Shown one piece after another: positions 6,326-62,112 of a stretch of DNA of 64,000 bases. The notes beneath the pieces were generated by a model. The model ran no database searches and was not told the DNA's origin. It saw only the letters and a program-made list of their open reading frames with translations. This stretch comes from Acutalibacter sp. 1XD8-33 (GTDB lineage Bacteria; Bacillota; Clostridia; Oscillospirales; Acutalibacteraceae): NCBI RefSeq assembly GCF_003612555.1, contig NZ_RAZF01000003.1, positions 1 to 64,000 on the forward strand. Reading direction: 5' to 3'. The position numbers and the translations under genes are program-made. Numbering within the stretch: the first letter of the stretch is position 1; every line of letters starts with the position of its first letter.

Positions 6326-6518
6326 ACGCATTTTTTGAAGTAGTAGGGGGCCTTCGTCGGCACAGAGACGCCGACTCTGGCAAGACTGTGGGACATTGCT
6401 GAGGCACATCCTATCACTTTTGAAAAAGTGGACAAAACTTTTACCCTGGACGGCTTTGGCTGATCCAGCGGGCCGTCCTTTGGCCCGAAGGCTTTCCATT
6501 ACTTCAAAAAACGTGCGC
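6326..6518. repeat. Family A element, copy 2
   Basis: Ends are imperfect inverted repeats: GCATTTTTTGAAGTAGTAGG on the left and CCATTACTTCAAAAAACGTG on the right, each followed inwards by GGCCTTCG or its complement. It carries the CACTTTTGAAAAAGTG hairpin module. It is the clearest copy for seeing the terminal repeats. It lies 15 bases past the small ORF stop. Confidence 0.75.
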
Positions 6519-7487: not shown

Positions 7488-7715
7488 TTTTTTGAGAGTG
7501 ATGATGGCCTCTGGCAGGGAGGGGCTTCGCCCCCTCCACCCCCACCACCTTTTGAAAAAGGTGGACGAAAACTTTACCCTGGCTAGCTGTGTGGGATAAA
7601 TCCTGACATGTTGCGCGGTCAAGGGGCGTTAGGCCCCTTGCGAGGTGTGGAGCAGAGCTCCACGACCTTGCCGCAGTGCGAAGCACGGAGGCCACACAGT
7701 ATTACTCTCAAAAAT
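7488..7715. repeat. Family A element, copy 3
   Basis: Bounded by TTTTTTGAGAGTGATGATGGCC and GGCCACACAGTATTACTCTC, which are inverted repeats of each other. Internal modules include CCACCTTTTGAAAAAGGTGG, GTCAAGGGGCGTTAGGCCCCTTG and GTGGAGCAGAGCTCCAC. Arrangement is roughly the reverse of copy 1. It starts about 150 bases after tpiA; the stretch between 7339 and 7487 holds no clear feature. Confidence 0.8.
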
Positions 7716-8736: not shown

Positions 8737-10248
8737 TTGAAAAAGCCTTTAGTTTTAATGATTCTGGACGGCTTCGGCATCGCCCCGGACGAGGGCAATG
8801 CCATTGTGGCCGCCAGCACCCCCAACTTGGACCGCATCCTCAAGGAGAACCCCGTCACCAAGATCGGAGCCTCCGGCCTGGACGTGGGCCTGCCTGACGG
8901 CCAGATGGGCAATTCCGAAGTGGGCCACACCAACATCGGCGCGGGCCGCATCGTCTACCAGGAGCTCACCCGCATCACCAAGTCCGCCGAAGAGGGGGAC
9001 ATGGCGAAGAACCCCGCCCTGCTCCACGCCATGGAGTCCGCCAGGGACAACAACAAGGCCCTGCACTTTATGGGCCTTCTGTCTGACGGCGGCGTCCATA
9101 GTCACAACACCCATCTCTATGCCCTGCTGAAAATGGCCAAGAGCCTGGGGCTCACCAAGGTCTTTGTCCACTGCTTTCTGGACGGCCGGGACGTGCCCCC
9201 CTCCAGCGGCAAGGACTACGTGAAGGAGCTGGTGGAGAAGATGGAGGAGATCGGCGTGGGCAAGGCCGCCACGGTCATGGGCCGCTACTACGCCATGGAC
9301 CGGGACAACCGCTGGGAGCGGGTGGAGAAGGCCTATGCCGCCATGGTCTACGGCGAGGGCGTCGAGGCCGACTGCCCCATCTGCGCGGTGCAGAATTCCT
9401 ACGACCAGGAGGTCACCGACGAGTTCGTGGTTCCTACCGTATGTAAGGGCGCGGAGCCCATCCAGGCGGGCGACTCCATCATCTTCTACAATTTCCGCCC
9501 CGACCGGGCCCGGGAGATCACCCGCACCCTGGTGGATCCGGAATTCGGGGGCTTTGAGCGCCGGAAGGGCTTCTTCCCTCTGAACTACGTGTGTATGACC
9601 CAGTACGACGCCACCATGCCCAACGTGGACGTGGCCTACAAGCCCGAGAGCCTCACGAACACCTTCGGCGAGTACCTGTCCAACCAGGGCATGACCCAGC
9701 TGCGCATCGCCGAGACGGAGAAATACGCCCATGTGACTTTCTTCTTCAACGGCGGCGTGGAGAAGCAGTACCCCGGCGAGGACCGGATTCTGGTGAAGTC
9801 CCCCGCCGTGGCCACCTACGACCTGCAGCCGGAGATGAGCGCCTACGAGGTCACGGACAAGATGGTGGAGGCCGTGAAGTCCGGCAAGTACGACGCCCTG
9901 ATCCTCAACTATGCCAATTGCGACATGGTGGGCCACACCGGCGTGTTTGAGGCAGCGGTAAAGGCCGTGGAGGCCGTGGACACCTGCATCGGCCGGGTGG
10001 AGGCCGCGGTCAAGGAGATGGGCGGCTGTATTCTGCTCACTGCGGACCACGGCAACGCCGACAAGATGGTGGACGACGACGGCACGCCCTTCACCGCCCA
10101 CACTACCAATCCGGTGCCCTTCTGCGTGATCAACCACCCCTGCGAGCTCCGGGAGGGCGGCCGCCTGGCGGACATTGCCCCCACCATGCTGAAGGTGCTG
10201 GGCCTGCCCCAGCCCGCCGAGATGACCGGAGAGAGCATTATAAAGTAA
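8737..10248 (+). CDS. gpmI: 2,3-bisphosphoglycerate-independent phosphoglycerate mutase
   Basis: Interconverts 3- and 2-phosphoglycerate with two metal ions and a phosphoserine intermediate. The protein has 503 residues, the usual length. MILDGFG near the start carries metal ligands, and [14 protein letters not shown] contains the catalytic serine. [43 protein letters not shown] and [10 protein letters not shown] are all family signatures. It initiates at TTG after CAAGGAGGTATATAC; no in-frame ATG fits better. It completes the pgk-tpiA-gpmI cluster. Confidence 0.97.
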
Positions 10249-10305
10249 AGGGACCTGTACCCTTGAAATATTGCGCAATTGGCTTTTTGAAAGGAGGCTG
10301 TTGGA

Positions 10306-10641
10306 ATGGAAACTCCTGCCATGATCGGCCTGGCCGTGTTTATTGCGATAAGTCTTGGGCTTGTAGGGCTTTCGATCCCCCTGCTCCTGGGCAAGGGAAC
10401 CTGGCTCATCGCCGGGTACAACACCATGAGCGCCGAGGAAAAGGCCCGATGGGACGGCTCGGCCCTGGCCAGATTCACCGGAAGAGTGTTGCTAGCCATC
10501 GGACTGGCAACTCTGCTCTTTGGGGCAGGCCTCTTTCTCCTGGCCCTGGAATGGCTCACCTGGTTCTACCTGGCAGTTGTGGTCGGTCTGAGCATTTTCG
10601 CCGCTGTCTACTGCAACACCAGCGGCCGGTTCAGAAAGTAA
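10306..10641 (+). CDS. DUF3784-type small membrane protein
   Basis: The protein has 111 residues with three predicted membrane segments: about 5-25, 60-82 and 84-102. Between the first and second lies GKGTWLIAGYNTMSAEEKARWD, recognisable in its LIAGYNTMSAEEKA core as the DUF3784 signature seen in many Clostridia. The role of the family is not known. Start preceded by GAAAGGAGGCTGTTGGA. It begins 57 bases after gpmI. Its stop codon is followed directly by a family A repeat. Confidence 0.8.
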   Translation: METPAMIGLAVFIAISLGLVGLSIPLLLGKGTWLIAGYNTMSAEEKARWDGSALARFTGRVLLAIGLATLLFGAGLFLLALEWLTWFYLAVVVGLSIFAAVYCNTSGRFRK

Positions 10642-10968
10642 TACTTTATTGGAGCATGTGATGGCCTTCGGCGGCAAGAGTTCGTTAGACTTCGTCTTAC
10701 GAACTCTTGCCCTGGACTGGACCACACTTTTTGAAAAAAGTGTGGATCAAAAACTTTTACTTTGTCTAGCTTTATTTCACCCAGTTAACCAGGGTAAAAG
10801 TTTTGTCCACTTTTTCAAAAGTGGCGGGGTTCTTAGGGGGCGACAATCGCCAGTGGCGATTTCCCGTCGCCGACCGAGTCGGCAGACGAGACCAGCCGAG
10901 ACCCAGAGCCCCTAAGCGCCGAAGCCGCACCCCTTGCGGCGGAGGCCACACAGTATTACTCTCAAAAA
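10642..10968. repeat. Family A element, copy 4 (mixed ends)
   Basis: The left end TACTTTATTGGAGCATGTGATGGCC matches the end type of the copy near 59050-59220, whereas the right end GGCCACACAGTATTACTCTC is the common type. Internal modules are GTTCGTTAGACTTCGTCTTACGAAC, two CACTTTTTCAAAAGTG-type hairpins and CGCCAGTGGCGATTTCCCGTCG. It looks like a recombinant of two subtypes. It starts at the DUF3784 gene stop codon. Confidence 0.75.
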
Positions 10969-10982
10969 GTATCGCTAACGCC

Positions 10983-11020
10983 AAAAGGACCTCCCCAAAA
11001 AATCTGGGGGAGGCCCTTTT
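10983..11020. terminator. Bidirectional terminator
   Basis: AAAAGGACCTCCCC pairs with GGGGGAGGCCCTTTT, with A- and T-runs on both sides. It can end transcripts from the left (through the repeat) and from the broken cupin gene on the right. Confidence 0.75.
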
Positions 11021-11125
11021 CCTTATTTTTTCCACCTGTTTCCGGTAACGGCACACCTTGCCGCCGGTCTTGCTGAGATTTGGGAAGGGGCAATCCAATG
11101 AAAAGACATAGATGCCTCCGCTGGT

Positions 11126-11525
11126 TTAGAAGGACACCGTCAGCTGCATTTTAAACCGCTCCTCCCCATATACCGCATGGGGAATGTCTTTCGGCATAAT
11201 GAGCGCATCCCCGGCTGTGAGGATAAATACTTCCCCGCCAACCGTGAACCGCCCGGTGCCCTCTAACACGGTCGCCATTGCGTCGCCTCCGGCGGCGTGG
11301 GTAGAAATCTCCTCCCCTTTGTCAAAGGAAACCAGCGTCATGCTTACCAGCTGTCCCGGCTGGTATAAGTTAACGCAGTTCAAAAGAGGTAGAGTACCTC
11401 TTTTGAACCAGGCGACGTAGCCGCCCAGCTTGAAAATCGGTAAATACCGATTTTCAAGTGCGTTTACTATGGTCCACCTGATCCTTCAGCTTCACTACGG
11501 CCCACTTCTCAACATTCTTATACAT
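11126..11525 (-). pseudogene. Cupin-domain gene broken by a family B element
   Basis: Reading leftwards from ATG at 11525 gives MYKNVEKWAVVKLKDQVD, the usual N-terminus of a small cupin family. The frame then runs into the hairpin element and hits TGA. After the element the family sequence resumes in another frame: YQPGQLVSMTLVSFDKGEEIS, GGDAMATVLEGTG and MPKDIPHAVYGEERFKM. The intact protein would be about 105-110 residues, a single metal-binding beta-barrel. The only start for the downstream piece is a TTG inside the element with no ribosome site, so it is probably inactive. RBS before the original ATG: CAGGAGTGAGCCGGT. Confidence 0.8.
11368..11469. repeat. Family B double-hairpin element, copy 1 (inside cupin gene)
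   Basis: Ends are AGTTAACGCA and TGCGTTTACTA. Hairpin 1 is TTCAAAAGAGGT/ACCTCTTTTGAA, the core is GGCG...CGCC, and hairpin 2 is CTTGAAAATCGGTA/TACCGATTTTCAAG. It interrupts the cupin coding sequence after codon 18, which shows that it is an insertion rather than part of the gene. Confidence 0.85.
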
Positions 11526-11531
11526 ACCGGC

Positions 11532-12815
11532 TCACTCCTGTTCCTTTTCCGGGTTCTGTCTTACCCGGCGTTTGATTTTTGAGAAAATGATCACCTGACT
11601 GCTATAGAGCCCAAAATATCCCGAAAGCACAAAGGAAACCGCGATTGCCACGGCGAAAAGGCCCAGATTGGAGGTGGAGAACATCTCCGCCGCTAGAAAA
11701 AGCGTAGCGATTGGGCAGTTCACCACGCCGCAGAACACCGCCACCATCCCCACTCCCGCGGCAAAGCCCGGGCTCAGTCCCAGCAGCGGCCCAATCGCGC
11801 ATCCGAAGGTGGCCCCGATGAACAGCGTGGGCACAATCTCCCCGCCGCGAAACCCCGCCCCCACGCAGAGAGCCGTCAGGGCCAGCTTTACCAGAAACGC
11901 CCAGGAATCCGCCTCGCCGTTTACCGCCCTATCAATCATGTGGGCCCCGGCCCCGGCATAGTCCCAGAGCCCAAAAATATTTACCAGCACCGCCATCAGG
12001 CCGCCCCCACAGGCAATGCGGAGATAGGGATTCTTAAGGAGCTTTTCCGCCCAATGCCCCGCCCCGTGAATCACCATGCATAATAGGATGGCCACCCCGG
12101 CGCATAAAGCGGCTAAAATCCCCACCTGAAGAACTGTTTCCAGGCTGGCCTGGGGAATGCCTCCCTTCAGGTCATATTGCAGCGTACCGCCTCCTATCCA
12201 GCTGTTCACAGCGGACGCCATATATGAGGCCAACACGCAGGGCAGAAACGCACCATAATGGATCCTGCCCACACAGATTACTTCCAGGACAAACACTGCC
12301 GCCGCCAGGGGCGTACCAAACATGGCGGAAAAGCAGGCCGCCATGCCGCACATGGAAAGCACCCGTACATCGTCCTCGTCAAACCTGAGCAGCTCGCCAA
12401 AATTGTGCCCGACGCTGCCTCCCAGCTGCAAAGCCGCCCCCTCCCGGCCCACCGACGCGCCAAACAAATGAGAGAGCAGCGTGCCCGCCGCGATCAACGG
12501 GGCCAGCAGAATCGGAATATGCTCGTTGGTGGTAACAGACTGAATAATCAGGTTGGTCCCTGCCCCAAAACTCACCTTGCACAGCCGGTACAGGAGCAGC
12601 GTCACCAGCCCCGCCGCCGGAAGGAACCAGATGATGTAACCATGCTCCTGCCGGAATGCTGTGGCCCATCCGATGCCGCTGTGAAACAGCGTGCCCAGCA
12701 GTCCCCCGATTCCTCCAACCAAAAGTGACGCCAGCACCCATTTTAAAAACGCCAGAACATACTCCCCCGAGGCTTTTGCCCCGTCACGCAGCTTTTCCCG
12801 GTCCCATATCCGCAT
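11532..12815 (-). CDS. CLC-family anion channel/transporter (possibly fluoride type)
   Basis: The protein has 427 residues with about ten hydrophobic segments. CLC signatures: GAGTNLII in place of GSGIP, then GREGAALQLGGS with the gating glutamate, GFRGGEIVPTLFIGA in place of the GxFxP region, and NCPIATLFLAAEMF near the end. The GTNL and GFRGGEIVP variants resemble the fluoride-exporting CLC-F branch more than chloride exchangers such as EcClcA, but this needs a tree. No cytoplasmic CBS domain. Start placed at 12815 (MRIWDREK) after GCGGGAGGCGCTGGAA; an upstream TTG is possible. It ends 6 bases before the broken cupin gene start, so the two were probably one transcript. Confidence 0.85.
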   Translation of the reverse strand: MRIWDREKLRDGAKASGEYVLAFLKWVLASLLVGGIGGLLGTLFHSGIGWATAFRQEHGYIIWFLPAAGLVTLLLYRLCKVSFGAGTNLIIQSVTTNEHIPILLAPLIAAGTLLSHLFGASVGREGAALQLGGSVGHNFGELLRFDEDDVRVLSMCGMAACFSAMFGTPLAAAVFVLEVICVGRIHYGAFLPCVLASYMASAVNSWIGGGTLQYDLKGGIPQASLETVLQVGILAALCAGVAILLCMVIHGAGHWAEKLLKNPYLRIACGGGLMAVLVNIFGLWDYAGAGAHMIDRAVNGEADSWAFLVKLALTALCVGAGFRGGEIVPTLFIGATFGCAIGPLLGLSPGFAAGVGMVAVFCGVVNCPIATLFLAAEMFSTSNLGLFAVAIAVSFVLSGYFGLYSSQVIIFSKIKRRVRQNPEKEQE

Positions 12816-12939
12816 TTCCAGCGCCTCCCGCTCCAAATTTCATACGTCCTTATTATACTCCCAAATTTTTCCGTTTACAAGGCTTTATCTGGGAAGGTGG
12901 CGCAAAACGCGATTTGGGCGCTCCCTTCCAGAATTTTAG

Positions 12940-12968
12940 TTGACATTGCTGGAATTTCCCGATATAAT
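12940..12968 (+). promoter_or_regulatory. Consensus sigma-A promoter of the GH3 gene
   Basis: TTGACA, a 17-base spacer, then TATAAT. Both boxes match consensus fully. The start codon lies about 45 bases downstream. Confidence 0.85.
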
Positions 12969-13013
12969 AGAATTATATATAGGCTTTTTCCCAATAAAAA
13001 GCAGGAGGTATTT

Positions 13014-15245
13014 ATGGCAACACAAGAGAAATTTGGGGTTACCGTACATAAGAACCCCGGCGGGCCGGATATCGCCACGACCGGAGCAAAAATTTTAGAG
13101 AAAGACGGCCTCTTCTTCAAGGATCTGGCCGGAACCGGAGAACTGCTCCCCTATGAGGACTGGCGGCTGGATATTGAAGAGCGGGCCAAGGATCTGGCCG
13201 GGCGGCTCTCCATAGAGGAAATCGCCGGGCTCATGCTCTACTCCCCCCACCAGATGGTGCCCGCCGGGCCCCACGGCCCCTTCCCGGGCACCTACGGCGG
13301 GAAAACTCTGGAGGAGAGCGGCGCGGCCCATTGGGAGCTTACCGACCAGCAGAAAAACTTCATAGAGCGGGACCATGTGCGCCATATCCTGGCCATGGTC
13401 CTGGAAAACGCAGAAACCGCCGCCAAATGGAGCAACCGGCTCCAGAGCTTCGCGGAAAGCCTGCCCTGGGGCATTCCCGTGAATATCTCCAGCGATCCCC
13501 GGCACGGCTCCAGCAGCGCGGGCGCGGAGTACAAGTCCGGGGCCGGGGACGTGTCCAAGTGGCCGGAGGGGCTGGGCATGGCCGCTACCTTCTCCCCAGA
13601 GCTGTGCCGGGAGTTCGGCAAAGCCGTTTCCGAGGAGTACCGGGCCATGGGTATCACCACCGCCCTGTTCCCCCAGGTAGACCTGGCCACAGAGCCCCGC
13701 TGGATGCGCTTTGAGGACACCTTCGGCGCCCACCCGGACATGGTGGCCGACATGAGCAGAGCCTATTGCGACAGCCTGCAAACCACGGAAAACTCTCCCA
13801 CCGGCTGGGGCAAAGACAGCCTCTGCGCCATGGCCAAGCACTGGCCCGGCGGCGGCCCCTGTGAGGGGGGCCGGGACGCCCACTATCCCTTTGGCAAGTT
13901 CGCCGTGTATCCGGGAAACAACCTCTCCGACCACCTGAAGCCCTTCCTGGAGGGCGTGTTCCGCCTGGAGGGTCCTACCGGTAGGACCTCCGCCATCATG
14001 CCCTATTACACCGTCAGCTGGGGGCTGGACCAGAAAAACGGCAAGAACGTGGGCAACTCCTATAGCGAGTACCTGATCCGCGACCTGCTCCGGGAAAAAT
14101 ACGGCTACGACGGCGTGGTCTGCACCGACTGGGGCATCACCGCCGACCCGAGCCCGGAGATCGATTCCTTCTCCAGCCGCTGCTATGGGGTGGAGGACCT
14201 CTCCGAGGCCGAGCGCCATCTGCTGGCTATTGAAAACGGGGTGGATCAGTTCGGCGGGAACTCCGCCATCGCCCCTATTCTAGAGGCCTACGAGATCGGC
14301 TGCCGGCGCCACGGGGAAGCCGCCATGCGCAAACGGATGGAGGAGTCCGCCGTGCGCCTGTTGCGGAACATCTTCCGGTGCGGGCTCTTCGAGAACCCCT
14401 ACCTGGACCCCGCTGAAAGCGTAAAAACCACAGGCTGCGAGGCCTTCTGCCAGGCTGGCTACCAGGCCCAACTGAAGTCCCTGGTCTTGGTGAAAAACCA
14501 GGGCGCGCTGCCCCAGCGGGACCGGAAAAAGGTGTTCATCCCCGCCCGGCATATTGGGCCCATGAAGGCCTTCTTCCGCAGCGACCTGCCCGCCCAAGAC
14601 ATCCAGCCCATCTCAAGAGAGCTGGTGGAAAAATACTACGACTGGGCCGAAACGCCGGAAGAAGCGGACTTCGCCCTGGTATTCATCGAGAGCCCCCTTT
14701 CCGATGGCTACTCCCAGGCCGACCGGGACGCGGGCGGCAACGGCTATGTGCCCATTTCCCTGCAATACCGGCCCTATCGGGCGGATGCCGCCCGGAAGGA
14801 GAGCATCGCCGGAGGCGATTTCCGGGAGGATTTCACCAACCGGAGCTACAAGGGCAAAACCGGAACCGCCGCCAACGAGGCCGACCTGGATCTGGTATTA
14901 AATGCCAAGAGGGCCATGAGGGATAAGCCTGTCATCGTGGTGCTGCGGATGCACAAGCCCACCGTTCCGGCAGAATTTGAGCCCAGCGCCGACGCCATCC
15001 TCGTGGACTTTGGCGTGCAGAGCCAGGCCATTCTCGATCTGGTCAGCGGCAGGGCTGAGCCTAGCGGCCTGTTGCCCGTGCAGATGCCCGCCAATATGGA
15101 CACGGTGGAGCGCCATTGCGAGGACGTGCCCCTGGACATGGAGCCCTACCGGGACTCCGCCGGAAACGTCTATGACTTCGCCTTTGGCCTGAACTGGAAC
15201 GGCGTGATCTCCGACGGCCGCGCCCGCCGGTATCCCAAGCCCTGA
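13014..15245 (+). CDS. Glycoside hydrolase family 3 protein
   Basis: The protein has 743 residues starting MATQEKFGVTVHKN after GCAGGAGGTATTT. No signal peptide, so it is likely cytoplasmic. The N-terminal barrel carries ALFPQVDLATEPRW, AKHWPGGGP and GYDGVVCTDWGI, whose aspartate is the expected catalytic nucleophile of GH3. The second domain begins near residue 480 (SLVLVKNQGALP) and ends with DFAFGLNWNG. GH3 enzymes remove terminal beta-linked glucose, xylose or N-acetylglucosamine; the exact sugar cannot be read here. The usual C-terminal fibronectin-like domain seems absent. Driven by a perfect promoter. Confidence 0.92.
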   Translation: MATQEKFGVTVHKNPGGPDIATTGAKILEKDGLFFKDLAGTGELLPYEDWRLDIEERAKDLAGRLSIEEIAGLMLYSPHQMVPAGPHGPFPGTYGGKTLEESGAAHWELTDQQKNFIERDHVRHILAMVLENAETAAKWSNRLQSFAESLPWGIPVNISSDPRHGSSSAGAEYKSGAGDVSKWPEGLGMAATFSPELCREFGKAVSEEYRAMGITTALFPQVDLATEPRWMRFEDTFGAHPDMVADMSRAYCDSLQTTENSPTGWGKDSLCAMAKHWPGGGPCEGGRDAHYPFGKFAVYPGNNLSDHLKPFLEGVFRLEGPTGRTSAIMPYYTVSWGLDQKNGKNVGNSYSEYLIRDLLREKYGYDGVVCTDWGITADPSPEIDSFSSRCYGVEDLSEAERHLLAIENGVDQFGGNSAIAPILEAYEIGCRRHGEAAMRKRMEESAVRLLRNIFRCGLFENPYLDPAESVKTTGCEAFCQAGYQAQLKSLVLVKNQGALPQRDRKKVFIPARHIGPMKAFFRSDLPAQDIQPISRELVEKYYDWAETPEEADFALVFIESPLSDGYSQADRDAGGNGYVPISLQYRPYRADAARKESIAGGDFREDFTNRSYKGKTGTAANEADLDLVLNAKRAMRDKPVIVVLRMHKPTVPAEFEPSADAILVDFGVQSQAILDLVSGRAEPSGLLPVQMPANMDTVERHCEDVPLDMEPYRDSAGNVYDFAFGLNWNGVISDGRARRYPKP

Positions 15246-15344
15246 AAGGAGCGCTTTTATGGAATCCTTCAGGAGGCGGTTTTGAGAATCTTTGAACTGA
15301 TGGTAAAATGAAAATTTAATTGTTTTGATAAGGCGGGGAAGTCC

Positions 15345-15821
15345 ATGGTAAAAAAGGTGCTGTCTCTGTTGCTTTTACCGGCGGGGATCTTTATGTTTGC
15401 CGCGTGCGAAAGGAAGCCGGAGGACCGGTATCCCCTGTGGGAGAAGGTGGAGGCGGAGGATTCGGTGAATCCAGGGGGAAAGCTGGAGTTTCGGGGAATC
15501 AATTTTGAGGAATACACAAGCCAGGAGGACGGAACCGTCTTTGATGCCGTGCTGGTTCAGCTCACAAACGCGGGTAGCGGGGAACTCCATTTTTCCCCCA
15601 CAGAGTATCGTGTGGACAAGCAGGAGAACGGGGAGTGGTATACCGTGTATCATCCCTATCTGGAGCGGTTCCTCAACTCCCCGTGTCTGGAGCCGGAGCA
15701 TACCCACCTGTTCAGCTTCCTGGTTCCTGCCGGACTGTTTGAGGAGCCCGGGGCGTACCGTTTATACATGGAACAGGTGGGGTACTGTGAAATTGACATT
15801 CTGTTTAGGCCAAATGATTGA
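15345..15821 (+). CDS. Lipoprotein with an immunoglobulin-like domain
   Basis: The protein has 158 residues. It starts MVKKVLSLLLLPAGIFMFAAC, a lipoprotein signal peptide with Cys near residue 21 for lipidation. The mature part is beta-rich (EDGTVFDAVLVQLTNAGSGEL, FSFLVPAGLFEEPGAYRLYM) and resembles the small Ig-like domains often found in Clostridia lipoproteins. No catalytic motif. It ends three bases before the reading frame of a truncated serine protease. Confidence 0.7.
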   Translation: MVKKVLSLLLLPAGIFMFAACERKPEDRYPLWEKVEAEDSVNPGGKLEFRGINFEEYTSQEDGTVFDAVLVQLTNAGSGELHFSPTEYRVDKQENGEWYTVYHPYLERFLNSPCLEPEHTHLFSFLVPAGLFEEPGAYRLYMEQVGYCEIDILFRPND

Positions 15822-15824
15822 AAT

Positions 15825-16436
15825 TTGAAAGGAGCAATTATAGATATAAACTATACTAATGCAGATGGAAATCACTATCCAAAGCATGTGGCAGTATATG
15901 TAGGCGCTTCTGGCGGGAAGTATAGCCAGTACCGGCTGGGGACTGGCTTTGCCGTGGGAGGAGATTTTGTAAAGTATACTGGGCATAGCCTCTGGAATCA
16001 TTGGGCCAAATATGATGATTGGGGAGTTCTCACGTTAAATTCACCCACCAATACATCCAGTCATATGGGTTTAAATGCTGTTAATAGTGCCAGCGATATG
16101 GTTGGACGTGTTTACTTTACGCAGGGTTATCCAGAAGATTTAAACATCAATAAACATACCCGGTGGGATGAATGGGATATGTATAAAGCATCAGGGAGGA
16201 TTATCGCAGATAAACCGCAACTGAGTCGCTTTTTGGACATTGTCACAACAACAATCCCGATAGAGCCTGGACAAAGTGGTTCCCCGGTATATACAAATAG
16301 AGGCGCAAGTGGCAATTGTATTGAGGCAATAGTTGAAGGAGACTATCCAGACCCCAATGCTAGTGAAAACTATCTGATTTTAGTCAATGACTGGTTAGTC
16401 AATCATATGAAAGAAAAGCATTTAAGTCAGGAATAG
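15825..16436 (+). pseudogene. Truncated V8-like (glutamyl endopeptidase) serine protease
   Basis: A 203-codon frame matches the C-terminal two thirds of trypsin-like proteases of the V8/S1B type: YVGASGGKYSQYRLGT, DDWGVLTL with the catalytic aspartate, MVGRVYFTQGYPEDLN, and PIEPGQSGSPVY with the catalytic serine. The N-terminal part with signal peptide and the TAAHC histidine is missing. The frame opens at TTG after a lipoprotein gene. A hand count over 15841-16140 gives about 44% GC, well below its neighbours, which suggests transfer followed by decay. An active protease is not expected. Confidence 0.75.
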
Positions 16437-16473
16437 GAAAGATGGATGTAGCAACGCGCGAAAGGAGCCCCTT

Positions 16474-17031
16474 ATGGAATCGATGCACAAACAGGAAAGG
16501 GTCCTGGAAACCTTTGACCTGGACGGGGCCAGCGTTCAGCTGGTAGAATGGGAGGAAAGCCTCTGGTGCGGAAAAATTCTCTACGCAAAGAACCCTGTCG
16601 ACGAGCCGGATGTGGAACAGCTGATGAAGGACTTTGTGGCGCTGGGGGAAGCGGAGCTCTCTCCCAACGGCCCCGAAGAGGGCTGGGACGTATGCCTGAG
16701 CTTCAATTATCTCTCCGGCCAACGGCCCAGCGGCGTGTTTTTTGGCTTCCTGGTGGAGAGCCGCCGCCAGCCGGAGGGCTTCGATATGGTCTGGATCCCG
16801 GCGGGCCGGTATCTGCGGCTGGAGATCAATGAGCAGACCGCCAAAGCCCTGGATAAACAGCCCTGGACCGGCGGCGTTCCCCCTTTCCAGTGGGTCAGCG
16901 AGAGCATCGGCCCCCGGCTGGGATTTGCCTGCGGAGACAGTCAGCTGCCCATTGTGGAGTACTACCGCCACCGCCCGGATGGAGAAATCCAGGGCTGTTG
17001 GCTGTATGTGCCCGTACAGCAAAAAAAGTAG
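16474..17031 (+). CDS. GyrI/AraC effector-binding-like domain protein
   Basis: The protein has 185 residues. The central part IPAGRYLRLEI followed by a helix, and the final PIVEYYRHRPDGEIQGCWLYVPV, resemble the small-molecule-binding domain shared by GyrI-like proteins and AraC-type regulators, where a barrel of strands binds a hydrophobic ligand. No DNA-binding helix-turn-helix is seen, so it is a free-standing binding domain. Start preceded by CGAAAGGAGCCCCTT. The call is based on pattern only. Confidence 0.6.
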   Translation: MESMHKQERVLETFDLDGASVQLVEWEESLWCGKILYAKNPVDEPDVEQLMKDFVALGEAELSPNGPEEGWDVCLSFNYLSGQRPSGVFFGFLVESRRQPEGFDMVWIPAGRYLRLEINEQTAKALDKQPWTGGVPPFQWVSESIGPRLGFACGDSQLPIVEYYRHRPDGEIQGCWLYVPVQQKK

Positions 17032-17123
17032 CTGGGAAAGTAGGGGACATGGGGTTAAGTTTTCCCAAAAAATTCCGATATACTAGGTGAACTCATCTGA
17101 ATGAATAGAAGGAGGAAATTTCC

Positions 17124-17795
17124 ATGGCAATTGAATTCGATCCCGCTTTAAACCGCTATCAGAGCGTTACCAGCGGCATTCCTGCCGCAAAATCCACTGA
17201 AACTGCCAAGACCAGCGAGGCCGAAAGCACCAAAAAGGCTTCCGAAGGCCAGGCTGCGGAAGGCGCCGCTTCTGAAGGCAAGATCGAGCAGGACCCTGAC
17301 AGCGTTGACCTGAGCGACGATGCCAAAAGCGTAAACAAAATGAGCGCCGAAGAGCGCTCGGCCCTGGTGAAAAGCCTGAAGGCCGACCAGGAATATCAGA
17401 TGACCCGCTTCATCAACATGATGACCCAAACCTTCACCAAACAGGGCTTCACCGGCAAAACCGCCGAGGACGACTCTTTCTGGAAGATGTTCTCCTCCGG
17501 CAACCTTTCTGTGGACCTGGAAACCAAGAAGGCCGCCCAGGAGGCCATTTCCGAGGACGGCTACTGGGGTGTAAAGCAGACCTCTGACCGTATCTTTAAG
17601 ATGGCCCAGGCCCTGGCCGGGGACGATCCTGAAAAGATGAAAACCATGCAGGCAGCCGTCAAGAAGGGCTATGAGGCCGCGGGCAAGGCCTGGGGTAGTG
17701 ACTTGCCCGATATTGCCGGAGAGACCATTGACGCTGTCAACAAGATGTTCGACAACTACTTTGGCAAGGACGAGGAAGAAGAGGAAAAGAAGTAA
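17124..17795 (+). CDS. Hypothetical acidic protein
   Basis: The protein has 223 residues starting MAIEFDPALNRYQ after GAAGGAGGAAATTTCC. Residues about 18-55 are a low-complexity Ala/Ser/Glu/Lys region. The rest is helical, with GYWGVKQTSDRIFKMAQ and WGSDLPDIAGETIDAVNKMFD, followed by a Glu/Lys tail. The pattern of aromatic and Gly residues recalls DUF5610-like proteins sometimes found near motility genes, but this is uncertain. A possible -10 (TATACT) lies about 45 bases upstream. No signal peptide. Confidence 0.7.
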   Translation: MAIEFDPALNRYQSVTSGIPAAKSTETAKTSEAESTKKASEGQAAEGAASEGKIEQDPDSVDLSDDAKSVNKMSAEERSALVKSLKADQEYQMTRFINMMTQTFTKQGFTGKTAEDDSFWKMFSSGNLSVDLETKKAAQEAISEDGYWGVKQTSDRIFKMAQALAGDDPEKMKTMQAAVKKGYEAAGKAWGSDLPDIAGETIDAVNKMFDNYFGKDEEEEEKK

Positions 17796-17864
17796 GAGGC
17801 GCAGCGAGGCTACTTACTTTAGCCACTTTTTGCGCGTCTTTTTCAGAACCGCTCCGGGTTAAAT

Positions 17865-17965
17865 TCCCTTGAAGGAAAAATACACTTGCGGAAGTTTGCC
17901 TTAATTAATCTCTGAACATTCTCGCTCGTCTGGCAATTTCGATATGAATACAGCTTCTTATAGTA
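17865..17965. repeat. Family D element, partial and diverged copy
   Basis: CCGCTCCGGGTTAAATT, GAAGTTTGCCTTAATTA, CTCGTCTGGCAATTTCGATA and ATGAATACAGCTTCTTA align in order with the right half of the copy at 28625-28807. The left arm is missing or unrecognisable. Confidence 0.6.
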
Positions 17966-17968
17966 AAC

Positions 17969-18086
17969 TAGTAAACGCACTTGAAAATCGGTAAATACCG
18001 ATTTTCAAGCTGAGCAGATTTTCCGCCTGGTTCAAAAGAGGTATTCTACCTCTAGGTATCTTACCTCTTTTGAACTGCGTTAACTA
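17969..18086. repeat. Family B element, copy 2
   Basis: TAGTAAACGCA at one end and TGCGTTAACTA at the other. It contains CTTGAAAATCGGTA/TACCGATTTTCAAG and a longer second hairpin, TTCAAAAGAGGTA... paired with ...TACCTCTTTTGAA. The central GGCGG/CCGCC core has drifted. It lies directly beside the family D fragment. Confidence 0.8.
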
Positions 18087-18087
18087 C

Positions 18088-18125
18088 AAAAAAGACGGTG
18101 CGGCCTTGGCTGCATCGCCTTTTTG
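18088..18125. terminator. Hairpin with flanking A and T runs
   Basis: AAAAAAGACGGTGCGGCC pairs imperfectly with GGCTGCATCGCCTTTTT (three mismatches, some wobble). Probably a bidirectional terminator. Confidence 0.55.
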
Positions 18126-18138
18126 CTACTTTGTTGTT

Positions 18139-18172
18139 ATCCGGGAGAGTTTTCCGCCTTCCCGGATTTTTC
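18139..18172 (+). terminator. Rho-independent terminator
   Basis: ATCCGGGA pairs with TCCCGGAT, followed by TTTTCT. Confidence 0.6.
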
Positions 18173-18256
18173 TGTTCCTGCCAGCTTCGCGGGCGGCGGG
18201 CCTGACGCCCTCCACTTTTCTGACCGCGCGCCCATAAAATGAACTGAAAAATCAAG

Positions 18257-18294
18257 AAAAGAGCCAGCGGCTTTCCATTGCCGCCAGCTCTTTT
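18257..18294 (-). terminator. Terminator of the M18 aminopeptidase gene
   Basis: AAAAGAGC...GCGGC pairs with GCCGC...GCTCTTTT; on the minus strand it lies about 12 bases past the stop and ends in a T-run. Confidence 0.75.
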
Positions 18295-18304
18295 CCATTC
18301 AATT

Positions 18305-19711
18305 TTATTTTGCCTCAAAATAGGCTTTGAAGGCCTCATAGGCGCTGTACAGGTCCACCTTGGAGATGACCTCGAAGGGGGCGTGCATGGAGAGCACCGG
18401 CACGCCGATGTCGATCACGTCCGCGTTCAGCCGGGCCACGTCATAGGCCACGGTGCCGCCGCCGCCCTGGTCCACCTTGCCCAGCTCGCCGATCTGCCAC
18501 AGCACCCCGGCCTCGTCCAGGATGCGACGCACCCAGCCCAGGAACTCGGCGGAGGCGTCGTTGCTGCCGCCCTTACCCCTGCTGCCGGTATACTTGGCGA
18601 TGCCCACGCCCCGGTTCACATAGGTGGAGTTGCCGGGCTCGTAGGCGGAGATATAGGTGGGGTCCAGCGCAGCGGTCACGTCGGCGGAGAGGCAGCTGGA
18701 CTTGCTCCACACATGCTGGGGCTCCAGGCCCTCTCCCCTGGCCAGATCGCTGACGAAGTAGTTCATATACTCGGAGCAGAGGCCCGTGTTGCCCACGCTG
18801 CCGATCTCCTCCTTGTCCGCCAGCACCACCAGAGAGGTTTTCTCCGGGGCGGCGCAGTCGAACAGGGCCTGCAGGGCGGGATAGGCGCATACCCGGTCAT
18901 CGTGGCCGTAAGCGCCCACCATGCTCCGGTCAAAGCCAATGTCCACCGCCTTGAACGCGGGGACAAACTCCAGCTCGGCGGAGATCAGGTCACCCTCCAC
19001 AATGCCGTACTGGTCGTTGAGGATCTTCATCACATTCAGTTTGTAGAGCTGCTCGCCCTCCTCGTCCAGGGGCAGGCTGCCCACCAGCACGTTCAGGTCC
19101 TCGCCGGTGAAGGCCTCTCCCAGCTTCTTGCCGTTCTGGTCCTTGCCCAGATGGGGCAGGATGTCCGTGATGCAGAACTGGGGGTCGCCCTCGTTCTCAC
19201 CCACGTTCACGGTGATCTCCGTGCCGTCCTTACGCACGATCTTGCCGTGGACGGACAGGGGGATGGCGGTCCACTGGTACTTCTTGATGCCGCCGTAGTA
19301 GTGGGTTTTCAAAAGGCAGAGCTCGCTGCTCTCGTACAGGGGGATGGGCTTCAGGTCGATGCGGGGGCTGTCGATATGGGCGGCGGCGATGCGCACGCCC
19401 TCCTTGCACCCGGATTTGCCGATCACGGCCAGGCACATGGCCTTGCCCCGGTTGTTGTAGTAGATCTTCTCCCCGGGGGCGTAGGCCTTGCCGGGCACAT
19501 AGGCCCGGAATCCGGCGGCCTCGGCGGCGGCCACGGTCCAGTCCACGGTCTCCCGCTCGGTTTTGGAGGCGGTGATGAAGTCCTTGTAGCCCTCGGCGAA
19601 GTCCATGGCCTTGGGGGCGATCTTCAGGCAGGCGGCGCGGGCGGGCTTGGCACGGTCCAGCAGCAGTTTTTCCGCCAGCTCTTTGGCGGCGGAGTTCTTA
19701 TTCTCGTCCAT
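18305..19711 (-). CDS. M18-family aminopeptidase
   Basis: The protein has 468 residues. A two-metal (zinc) aminopeptidase that removes acidic or neutral N-terminal residues, normally as a cytoplasmic dodecamer. Metal and catalytic residues sit in AAHIDSPRID, VGAYGHDDRVC, LADKEEIGS, SADVTAALDP and LSMHAPFEV. Start placed at ATG 19711, eight bases after AGAGGG; a TTG two codons earlier is less likely. It has a consensus promoter and its own terminator, so it is a single-gene transcript. Confidence 0.95.
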   Translation of the reverse strand: MDENKNSAAKELAEKLLLDRAKPARAACLKIAPKAMDFAEGYKDFITASKTERETVDWTVAAAEAAGFRAYVPGKAYAPGEKIYYNNRGKAMCLAVIGKSGCKEGVRIAAAHIDSPRIDLKPIPLYESSELCLLKTHYYGGIKKYQWTAIPLSVHGKIVRKDGTEITVNVGENEGDPQFCITDILPHLGKDQNGKKLGEAFTGEDLNVLVGSLPLDEEGEQLYKLNVMKILNDQYGIVEGDLISAELEFVPAFKAVDIGFDRSMVGAYGHDDRVCAYPALQALFDCAAPEKTSLVVLADKEEIGSVGNTGLCSEYMNYFVSDLARGEGLEPQHVWSKSSCLSADVTAALDPTYISAYEPGNSTYVNRGVGIAKYTGSRGKGGSNDASAEFLGWVRRILDEAGVLWQIGELGKVDQGGGGTVAYDVARLNADVIDIGVPVLSMHAPFEVISKVDLYSAYEAFKAYFEAK

Positions 19712-19755
19712 TGGCAATCCCTCTTTTTGGAAATTATTTTGGTGATTCGCTAAAA

Positions 19756-19784
19756 ATTATACTCCCCCCGGGGAGACTTGTCAA
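19756..19784 (-). promoter_or_regulatory. Sigma-A promoter of the M18 gene
   Basis: On the minus strand: TTGACA (19784-19779), 17 bases, TATAAT (19761-19756). The 17-base spacer contains the palindrome CTCCCCGGGGGGAG, which could be an operator. Confidence 0.8.
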
Positions 19785-19829
19785 GCCACAATCCCCTTTT
19801 AAGGAGTGGTAGAAGGCCTTGCAAAGGTA

Positions 19830-20078
19830 TTTTTTAAGAGTAATACGGTGTGGCCTCCATGCGCACAGAAGAGTTCGCAAGCGAACTCTCGCGCATTCCG
19901 GCAAGGTCGTGGGGTTTCGCCCCCACACGACGACCAGCTTAAGACCAGCTGGACCGGTCAACGTTTGTCAATAAAATTGTTCACGACGAACGAAGTGAGG
20001 AGTGGGTAAAAGTTTCGTCCACCTTTTCAAAGGTGGTGGGGTTCTTAGGGGCAACGCTCCTAAGCCGCCGGAGGCCTA
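19830..20078. repeat. Family A element, copy 5
   Basis: Starts TTTTTAAGAGTAATACGGTGTGGCCTCC and ends CCGCCGGAGGCCTAC. Modules: GAGTTCGCAAGCGAACTC, GGTCGTGGGGTTTCGCCCCCACACG, a GACCAGCT/AGCTGGACCGGTC pair and CCACCTTTTCAAAGGTGG. Its right end overlaps the 3' end of the lytic transglycosylase gene. Confidence 0.75.
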
Positions 20079-20653
20079 CCCCCATAGAGGTTTTGGTAGA
20101 TGCTCTGGCCCCGCTGGACCTTTTTCACGTAGGCGGCGGTTTCGGGGAAGGGGATTTTCTCCAGGGTACGGCCATTGGGGGAGCAGGCGGGATCCTCCAA
20201 CCAGCGGTCCACGTTGCCCATGCCCGCGTTATAGGCAGCCAAGGCCACCTCTTGGTCCTCATAATGATTCAGCAGCAACCTCAATAGGGCGCAGCCGCAG
20301 TGCACATTATCGTTGGCGTCAAAGATATCCCCGCCGCCGTTCTCCGGGGGATATTCCGCCGCCATCCAGCGGAAAGTCCCCTCCGTCAGCTGCATCAGCC
20401 CCATGGCCTCCGCCCGGGAACGGGCTGTGGGGTCAAACCCGCTTTCCGCCTGGATTACCGCGTAAACCAGTTCCTCCGGCAGGCCGAACTCCTCGGCCTC
20501 CCGGTTCACTACCTGGGTAAACGCCTGGGGGTAGCGCAGCCGCAGAACCCAATCCGCCAGCCGGGGACCCAAGGCCACTCCTAAAATCCCCGCCAGAGCT
20601 ACCGCCGCCAATCCCAGCGCCAGCTTTTTCCCGGGCTTCTTCACCGGCCTCAC
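20060..20653 (-). CDS. Membrane-anchored SLT-type lytic transglycosylase
   Basis: The protein has 197 residues. An N-terminal membrane segment (about residues 10-30) is followed by a lysozyme-like SLT domain. The catalytic glutamate is in VIQAESGFDPTARS, followed by AMGLMQLTEGTF and VALAAYNAGMGNVDRWL. It would cut peptidoglycan glycan strands outside the membrane. Its first codon overlaps the stop of the upstream TsaC/CoaE gene (ATGA), a linkage of coaE and slt often seen in Clostridia. The last residues (RPPAA) and the stop codon are encoded by a family A repeat, so the original C-terminus has probably been replaced. Confidence 0.92.
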   Translation of the reverse strand: MRPVKKPGKKLALGLAAVALAGILGVALGPRLADWVLRLRYPQAFTQVVNREAEEFGLPEELVYAVIQAESGFDPTARSRAEAMGLMQLTEGTFRWMAAEYPPENGGGDIFDANDNVHCGCALLRLLLNHYEDQEVALAAYNAGMGNVDRWLEDPACSPNGRTLEKIPFPETAAYVKKVQRGQSIYQNLYGGRPPAA

Positions 20654-28078: not shown

Positions 28079-28491
28079 ATTTTGGGAGTGACGACGGCCT
28101 CCGGCGGTTCAGGGGTTCTTCTCACCTGCCGGTTCGGTCGGCGACGGGAAATCGCCACTGGCGATTGTCGCCCCCTGAAAACCCCGCCACTTTTGAAAAA
28201 GTGGACAAAACTTTTACGCTGGCCAACTTTTAAGCACTCAGCTAGCCAGGTTAAAAGTTTTTGATCCAAACTTTTCCCTAGCTAGCTGTGTGGGATAAAT
28301 CCGGACATGTTGCGCAGTCAAGGGGCGGGGAAAATCGCCAGTGGCGATTGTTCTGACCCGACCGAGCCGGCAGGCGAGACAGGCCCCTTGCGAGGTGTGG
28401 AGCAGAGCTCCACGACCTTGCCGGAATGCGCGAGAGTTCGCTTGCGAACTCTTCTGTGCGCATAAAGGCCACACAGTATTACTCTTAAAAA
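28079..28491. repeat. Family A element, copy 6 (longest)
   Basis: TTTTGGGAGTGACGACGGCCTCCGG at the left and GGCCACACAGTATTACTCTT at the right. It carries two copies of the CGCCACTGGCG module, the CACTTTTGAAAAAGTG hairpin, GTGGAGCAGAGCTCCAC and GAGTTCGCTTGCGAACTC. Length about 410 bp suggests two units merged. Confidence 0.8.
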
Positions 28492-37025: not shown

Positions 37026-37268
37026 TTTTTGAGTGTTGGGAGTCATACGGAGTGGCCTCCGGCGGGGAGGGGGCTTTGCCCTCTCCACCCCTACCACCTT
37101 TGAAAAGGTGGACGAAACTTTTACCATGGTTAGCTTGGAATGCTACAGTGAACAACATCGACCGGTCCAGCTGGTCTTAAGCTGGCGGGGGTGTGGGGCG
37201 CGGAGCCCCACGACCTTGCCGTAGCCGCGTTCTTTGCGGAGAAGGCCACACAGTATTACTCCCCAAAA
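37019..37268. repeat. Family A element, copy 7
   Basis: TTTTTTTGAGTGTTGGGAGTCATACGGAGTGGCC on its left (read in two parts) and GGCCACACAGTATTACTCCC on its right. It has GGGGGCTTTGCCCTCTCC, CCACCTTTGAAAAGGTGG, a GACCGGTCCAGCTGG module and GGGGCGCGGAGCCCC. It begins in the terminator T-run of the anti-sigma gene. Confidence 0.8.
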
Positions 37269-51383: not shown

Positions 51384-51485
51384 TAAAGTAAGCAAACTTG
51401 AGAATCATCAAAGCTGAATTTCAAGTCTGGCGGCATAGCTGCCCGGTTCAAAAGATTCTGAGATTCTTTTGAAGTTTGTTAACTA
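51384..51485. repeat. Family B element, copy 3
   Basis: AGTAAGCAAACTTGAGAATC at the left and GAAGTTTGTTAACTA at the right. Core GGCGGCATAGCTGCC. Hairpin TTCAAAAGATTCT/AGATTCTTTTGAA has a stem sequence different from copies 1 and 2 but the same pairing; the other hairpin is weaker. Confidence 0.7.
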
Positions 51486-51486
51486 T

Positions 51487-51836
51487 ACTTTTTTAGAGTG
51501 GTGCTCGCTTCGCTGCGCAGGCCTCCGACGGTTTAGGGGTTCTTCTCACCTGCCGGTTCGGTCGGCGACGGGAAATCGCCACTGGCGATTGTCGCCCCCT
51601 AAAAACCCCGCAGCCTCTGAGAAAGGCAAGACTTCGTGAAACGAAGTCTACGAAACATTTTACCCTGGTTAGCTTTGACCAGCTGGCGCGGGTGTGGGGG
51701 TGAGCGTCTGCCGGATACTTGGCGAAGCCAAGTATTGCAGACCAGGCTGCGAACTGACCGAACCGGCAGGCGAGACTCGGAGCCCCACGACCTTGCGGCA
51801 GTGCGAAGCACGGAGGCCACACAGTATTATTTTTGC
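51487..51836. repeat. Family A element, copy 8
   Basis: CTTTTTTAGAGTGGTGCTCG at the left and GGCCACACAGTATTATTTTTG at the right. It has the CGCCACTGGCG module, AGACTTCGTGAAACGAAGTCT, ATACTTGGCGAAGCCAAGTAT and a CGAACCGGCAGGCGAGAC module. It sits directly beside family B copy 3. Confidence 0.8.
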
Positions 51837-51907
51837 AGAAAAGCGGAAGATGGACAAAACCGGGGCCCAAAAGCTGTCAGGGTCCCGGTTTTTACAAGAA
51901 CTTTATG

Positions 51908-51997
51908 GTTAATTAAGTTCAAAAGGATCTTTTGAACTAGGCGGCAGAGCCGCCGGATTTAAGAACCGGCTTTGTCGGTTCTTAAATTAATTTACTA
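51908..51997. repeat. Family B element, copy 4
   Basis: AATTAAGTTCAAAAGGATCTTTTGAACT, core GGCGGCAGAGCCGCC, then TTTAAGAACCGGC/GTCGGTTCTTAAA, ending TTTACTA (given here in parts). Both stems are perfect but differ from the other copies. Confidence 0.75.
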
Positions 51998-54654: not shown

Positions 54655-54973
54655 GAAATGCTTTTAAGACCTTGGGGACTCTGGTCTCGCCTGCCGGCTC
54701 GGTCAGCGCTTGACGGTCCCCACTGGGGACCAGCGCCCCCAAACCCCTGCAACCTTTGATAAAGGTAAGACTTCGTAGAACGAAGTCTACGAAACTTTTA
54801 CCCACTCCTCGCTTTGCTCGTCGTGAACGTTTTAAATGTTTTGACGAGCTAACCTAACAACCGTAAAAGTTTTGCTCGAGCTTTTTCAAAAGCTCGCAGG
54901 GTGTGGGACAGCGTCCCACGACCTTGCCGTAGCCGCATGGCGGCGGAGGCCACACAGTATTACTCCCAAAAAT
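54655..54973. repeat. Family A element, copy 9
   Basis: CTTTTAAGACCTTGGGGACTC at the left and GGCCACACAGTATTACTCCC at the right. Modules: GGTCCCCACTGGGGACC, AGACTTCGTAGAACGAAGTCT, GAGCTTTTTCAAAAGCTC, GTGTGGGACAGCGTCCCAC and a CTCCTCGCTTTGCTCGTCGTGAACG stretch shared with copy 5. It fills the gap between yccF and mltG. Confidence 0.75.
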
Positions 54974-61741: not shown

Positions 61742-62046
61742 TACTTTCTGAGAGTATGTTTTGGAGTCTCGCCTGCCGGTTCGGTCGGTGCTTGACGGTC
61801 CCCACCGGGGACCAGCACCCCCAGACCCCTGACCAGCTGTAAACTTGGCGTTGCCAAGTTTACAGCTGGACCGGTCAAAGCTAACCAGGGTAAAATGTTT
61901 CGTAGACTTCGTTTCACGAAGTCTTGCCTTTCTCAAAGGCTGCGGGGTTCTTAGGGGGCGACAATCGCCAGTGGCGATTTCCCGTCGCCGACCGAGGCGG
62001 CAGCCGAGACCCCTTGCGGCGGAGGCCACTCCGTATGACTCTCAAA
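61742..62046. repeat. Family A element, copy 11
   Basis: TACTTTCTGAGAGTATGTTTTGG at the left and GGCCACTCCGTATGACTCTC at the right. Modules: GGTCCCCACCGGGGACC, CTTGGCGTTGCCAAG, AGACTTCGTTTCACGAAGTCT and CGCCAGTGGCG. It fills the gap between the nitroreductase and transglutaminase genes. Confidence 0.8.
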
Positions 62047-62047
62047 C

Positions 62048-62112
62048 CCTATACTTTCTGGACGGCAAAGGTGTTTTGGGCCTCCGGTCTCGCCCGCCGG
62101 TTCGGTCAGTCG
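62048..62112. repeat. Family A element, partial copy next to copy 11
   Basis: TATACTTTCTGG, GTGTTTTGGGCCTCCGGTCTCG and CCGCCGGTTCGGTCAG repeat the first 60 or so bases of copy 11 in the same orientation. It stops about 15 bases before the transglutaminase stop codon. Confidence 0.6.

Follow-up and report, generated by a model that had tools for sequence, protein, structure and literature searches.

A cupin gene of Acutalibacter sp. 1XD8-33 interrupted by what is very probably a MITE with a cloverleaf fold

The window analysed here is a stretch of 64,000 nucleotides (positions 1 to 64,000 of contig NZ_RAZF01000003.1) which carries an interrupted cupin gene on its minus strand, from 11525 to 11126. 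The ATG at 11525 opens MYKNVEKWAVVKLKDQVD, which is 18 codons long, and is followed by CAT AGT AAA CGC ACT TGA, the TGA being in frame and inside a cloverleaf hairpin element. Cupin reading restarts at 11365, one frame off, with TACCAG and then YQPGQLVSMTLVSFDKGEEISTH... (YQPGQLVS...), and stops at 11126. The 18 codons, the in-frame TGA and the resumption in another frame had been reported in the initial annotation, and all are confirmed on the minus strand (11525-11126). When the flanks are joined at TA they encode an uninterrupted 97-residue protein which matches Pfam Cupin_2 (E 3.6e-13).

The interrupting element belongs to a repeat family, denoted family B, which has defined ends. It is bordered by TA on both sides (TA, then TAGTTAACGCA...TGCGTTTACTA, then TA) and is usually about 103 bp long; the ends proposed earlier were right to within 2-3 bases. 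Copies are mostly 98-122 bp and non-coding, with no long open frame within the element. An earlier description as a 102-bp double hairpin holds for the two hairpins, but a central arm and closing terminal repeats are also present, giving a cloverleaf. In the fold, terminal inverted repeats of 10 bp (AGTTAACGCA/TGCGTTTACT), which pair with one constant mismatch, enclose two 13-bp hairpins (A and B) with a short arm between them (Table 1).

Table 1. Parts of the interrupted cupin gene and copies of family B in the window
Feature	Position	Strand	Remarks
5' part, broken cupin	11472..11525	-	18 codons, then translation enters the element and ends at TGA
3' part, broken cupin	11126..11365	-	Pfam Cupin_2 when joined to the 5' part; 10 residues (30 bp) of the relatives read are missing
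Target TA, left copy	11364..11365	.	Belongs to the Tyr codon in the empty gene
Family B element TAAGTTAACGCA...TGCGTTTACTA	11366..11469	.	103 bp and an additional A on the left; core of the covariance model 11368-11468
Left terminal inverted repeat AGTTAACGCA, outer stem	11368..11377	+	
Hairpin A GTTCAAAAGAGGT..ACCTCTTTTGAAC	11378..11408	+	
Central arm GGCGACGTAGCCGCC	11411..11425	+	
Hairpin B CTTGAAAATCGGT..ACCGATTTTCAAG	11429..11458	+	
Right terminal inverted repeat TGCGTTTACT, outer stem	11459..11468	+	
Target duplication, right copy	11470..11471	.	Now TG, not TA
Second window copy	17970..18085	-	Enlarged hairpin A; one end carries a short tandem duplication
Third window copy, diverged	51387..51484	-	E 4.8e-12
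Fourth window copy, diverged	51907..51996	+	E 3e-16; outer stem AACGCA/TGCGTT rewritten to AATTAA/TTAATT, pairing kept

The window also contains mosaic repeats which share modules such as GGAGGCCACACAGTATTACTC in both orientations (2066-2151, 6415-6457, 7521-7714, 10649-10968 and 28096-28454, with further examples at 37054-37268, 51520-51839, 54684-54972 and 61766-62048).

The element could only be compared with an empty site at some distance. No close copy of this cupin was found in genus-mates, where the best identity is about 50-56%, and the empty state is inferred from relatives at 81-84% protein identity in other genera (other families of the order). It had been suggested that the comparison be made with an intact cupin gene next to the CLC gene. 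No cupin with a CLC gene beside it was present in the loci fetched, therefore cupin genes of other genera were used, and these do give the empty site. All of the relatives read are uninterrupted at the insertion point, with a tyrosine codon (TAY) at this position in most of them, within the motif Val-Asp/Glu-Tyr-Gln. Examples are L188 (GTGGACTATCAG; codons CAG GTG GAC TAT CAG), L185 (GTCGAATACCAG; CAG GTC GAA TAC CAG) and L189 (CAG GTG GAA TAC CGG), to be set against the filled site of the window, CAG GTG GAC [CATAGTAAACGCA...TGCGTTAACTTA] TAC CAG, i.e. GTGGAC[element]TACCAG. The TAY codon of the relatives indicates that the element entered the TA of a tyrosine codon (Tyr-19).

Compared with the empty site the insert is 106 nt (11366-11471), one more than the 105 nt of a clean TA insertion, due to an extra A at the left end of the element. 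The cupin frame is lost as a result, and the frameshift is thus caused by this 1-bp indel rather than by the insertion as such; a clean 105-bp event would keep the frame yet bring the TGA. The right copy of the target TA has since changed to TG. A second lesion, an in-frame 30-bp deletion relative to the relatives read, lies downstream between two GTAAGCA repeats. Together, the in-frame TGA, the later 1-bp indel, the mutated duplication and the 30-bp deletion mark the cupin gene as dead or dying, and they agree with a gene freed from constraint, although the 3' part is still stop-free. That open frame extends into the element, and a shortened cupin of 85 aa could be made from a TTG at 11383 through to the cupin stop, in which case the insertion would be harmless. 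We consider this very unlikely, as the TTG sits in a hairpin arm and the product would be without the first 18 residues and another 10 residues of the relatives read.

Insertion at TA is seen at four places, of which the cupin gene is one. In a resolvase-type recombinase gene (PF00239; G000:C50:126336-126442) there is TA on both sides of the element, and the joined flanks are in frame, reading ...SLELQQEH-Y-RQLVLERPNWELRRVYADEGISGTS... (EH-Y-R). In G011 a paralogous pair of loci, 93% identical over 120 bp, is filled in L133 and empty in L130 (CGTCATAGCGCAC). The fourth copy, L029, sits inside another repeat family, with intact relatives (CACACAGTATTACTC) and the repeat also intact elsewhere in the window; this is the weakest of the four sites because of flank mismatches. 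Beyond TAT...ATA, the flanks of copies have no strong consensus. These independent empty sites with TA on both sides of the element, together with the cupin relatives uninterrupted at the exact point, support the initial claim that family B inserts into new sites.

The long hairpins close to both ends might suggest movement by an IS200/IS605-type (Y1, single-strand) or REP-like system. Such systems are not known to duplicate their target. In family B, TA is present on both sides of the element and single in the empty sites, which makes their involvement highly improbable.

The element also occurs inside a second repeat (TTAGAAGCTGTACCGATAGGATTTGYGTTA...CTTTCTGAGAGA), in full and short forms and as a GTTAACTATA scar, and one copy of that repeat is apparently empty (L006:1296-1402, L014, L030, L156, L162, L167, L170, L176, L177 and L181). 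Nesting is also seen in L168:1012-1280, a 269-bp copy whose central arm contains another palindromic repeat (GGGCTTGTTTGAAAA...TTTTTCAAACAAGCCC).

Family B is present in many copies. A covariance model matches this genome at 112 places, and the 157 matches to the terminal pattern TATAGTWAACGCA compare with 4 for a reversed control, so the hairpin is not a product of chance. With a DNA query, 40 near-full copies were scored in the genome. Most copies appear to be intergenic, as a frame-shift test of 110 copies found no excess of frames spanning the element (48 vs 46 and 49). Among genus-mates the covariance model finds 73 matches in G011 (Neglectibacter sp. X58), 56 in G015, 53 in G040, 44 in G005, 39 in G042 and fewer elsewhere, with zero in 17 of the 29 genus genomes. 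Exact ends were counted 81 times here, 12 times in G010 and no more than 3 times in each of the others among 394 genomes sampled from the order, and no amplification outside the Acutalibacter/Neglectibacter genus was seen in that sample. A few Oscillibacter-like genomes have related ends around other inner hairpins. The hits in records of Synergistaceae, Holophagales and Psychrobacter appear to be chance matches or unresolved single ends, and viral contigs contained no exact match to the element.

Family B is short, non-coding and multi-copy, with terminal inverted repeats and a target duplication confirmed by empty sites, as is expected of a MITE. We consider the hairpin to be a member of a non-coding, non-autonomous MITE family that is present in many copies in the Acutalibacter/Neglectibacter genus and that inserted here into a cupin TA (probability about 0.93).

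The cloverleaf is retained across the family. In 46 aligned copies 95.2% of cells pair, and 14 of 40 pairs have two-sided changes. Cells changed on both sides number 46, against 11.0 +/- 2.7 in shuffles (0/500 reaching this value; relatedness is only partly corrected), and they drop to 1-14 when partners are slid as a control. All four stems covary, the terminal stem going from GC to AU in 8 sequences. A strong, conserved and covarying fold could belong to an element that acts like an intron or in recoding and is removed from the RNA or bypassed in it. This has very little going for it: precise excision of a standard element from its TA would not remove the extra A, and the frame would stay shifted; the joined flanks of most copies examined carry no coding frame; and the element, at about 100 bp, has no intron core. 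Rfam 15 gave no match in window positions 9000-20500, save one far below cut-off and outside the element.

Covariation says that the stems stay paired; it does not tell why. One possible reason is selection on a folded RNA or DNA function, such as recognition of the fold by a transposase or an RNase III site. This competes only with the proposed template-switching step and not with the MITE reading. It would account for covariation in all four stems, the terminal one included, and for the window copy with a rewritten, still paired terminal stem, and is a serious possibility, although we lean against it. The alternative is mutational correction, as template switching during replication is known to create and repair stems (PMC8794818), and the short forms look like the leavings it would be expected to produce. 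Forms of 54-57 bp are hybrids of hairpins A and B, each contributing one half, with the left arm of one meeting the right arm of the other (L162, L167, L170, L181, L144 and L042:1734-1789). Some of these are partly corrected to a palindrome, and L169:719-772 is a perfect 54-bp palindrome. A deletion between the GGTA/TACC loops, then template-switch correction, would account for the short forms without selection.

The following route is proposed for the movement of family B. A transposase supplied in trans would recognise the terminal repeats TAGTWAACGCA, excise or copy the element and join it into a TA, which becomes duplicated; in this case the target would be the TA of the Tyr-19 codon of the cupin gene. 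Compensated stems would then be kept by template switching in replication. Duplication of TA points to an enzyme of the IS630/Tc1-mariner type, as proposed for RUP (PMC2229807; PMC3049150), and the mover is probably a TA-inserting (IS630-like) transposase acting in trans.

RUP (repeat unit of pneumococcus) is the closest analogue, likened by description. It is 107 bp long with 108-110 copies, inserts at TA with duplication, lies mostly between genes and has terminal repeats that pair in the fold (PMC2229807; PMC3049150). Family B differs in having two long inner hairpins and a central arm, and in the lack of a resident IS found with its ends, whereas RUP shares its ends with the resident IS630-Spn1. 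Correia/NEMIS elements of Neisseria likewise have TA at the termini, terminal repeats, known filled and empty sites, and forms of about 107 bp and 155 bp (PMC2229807), but their terminal repeats are 24 bp rather than short repeats closing a multi-arm fold. ERIC/IRU elements of enterobacteria are palindromic, non-coding and intergenic, with TA ends and target duplication (PMC2229807), but form a single long stem and belong to a different host group. CIR of Caulobacter/Brucella also has two long arms and a linker (PMC2229807), but lacks terminal inverted repeats and contains a GANTC motif.

An autonomous parent with the ends of family B was sought through DDE_3 in the 29 genus genomes and in six genomes with related ends, and through DDE_Tnp_1 in five copy-rich genomes. 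No such parent was found: none of the fetched transposase loci checked for element ends fits (the DDE_Tnp_1 check being limited), and TATAGTWAAC is absent from the DDE_3 loci fetched from the genus. The sole IS630-type transposase gene of this genome has different ends (TATTATTCCTG...GGGGTAATA); it belongs to a 1.1-kb element (L063:656-1758) with a split reading frame in this genome. Among the other copy-rich genomes, the four screened (G011, G015, G040 and G042) have no DDE_3 match, and G022 has 13 equal-scoring DDE_3 matches. Nearby exact-end pairs in G000 were not seen to enclose a transposase, although draft genomes may miss such an element. Two candidates were rejected: at L246 a single decayed end lies about 360 bp from an IS4-type gene, with no flanking pair, and in L124 both ends, 4.6 kb apart, lie within unrelated open frames. 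The parent may have died out, may be missing from the assemblies or may belong to another class. Family B works like RUP, yet no IS630 with its ends was found, and it cannot be filed as an IS630 MITE. That it represents TA-inserting MITEs which conserve the cloverleaf fold with its terminal stem instead of the sequence of their ends, and which reached some 100 copies through an enzyme not of the IS630 type, seems unlikely.

No description of MITEs from Acutalibacter or Oscillospiraceae was found in the literature searched, and family B is apparently undescribed, but it is of an already known kind. With family B, gut Acutalibacter/Neglectibacter has a MITE family whose ends and target rule are defined and which shows evidence of having disrupted a gene; its missing transposase raises a concrete question. 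Its graded series of full, hybrid, half-corrected, perfectly palindromic, scar and empty states is a natural data set on hairpin shrinkage and repair in replication.
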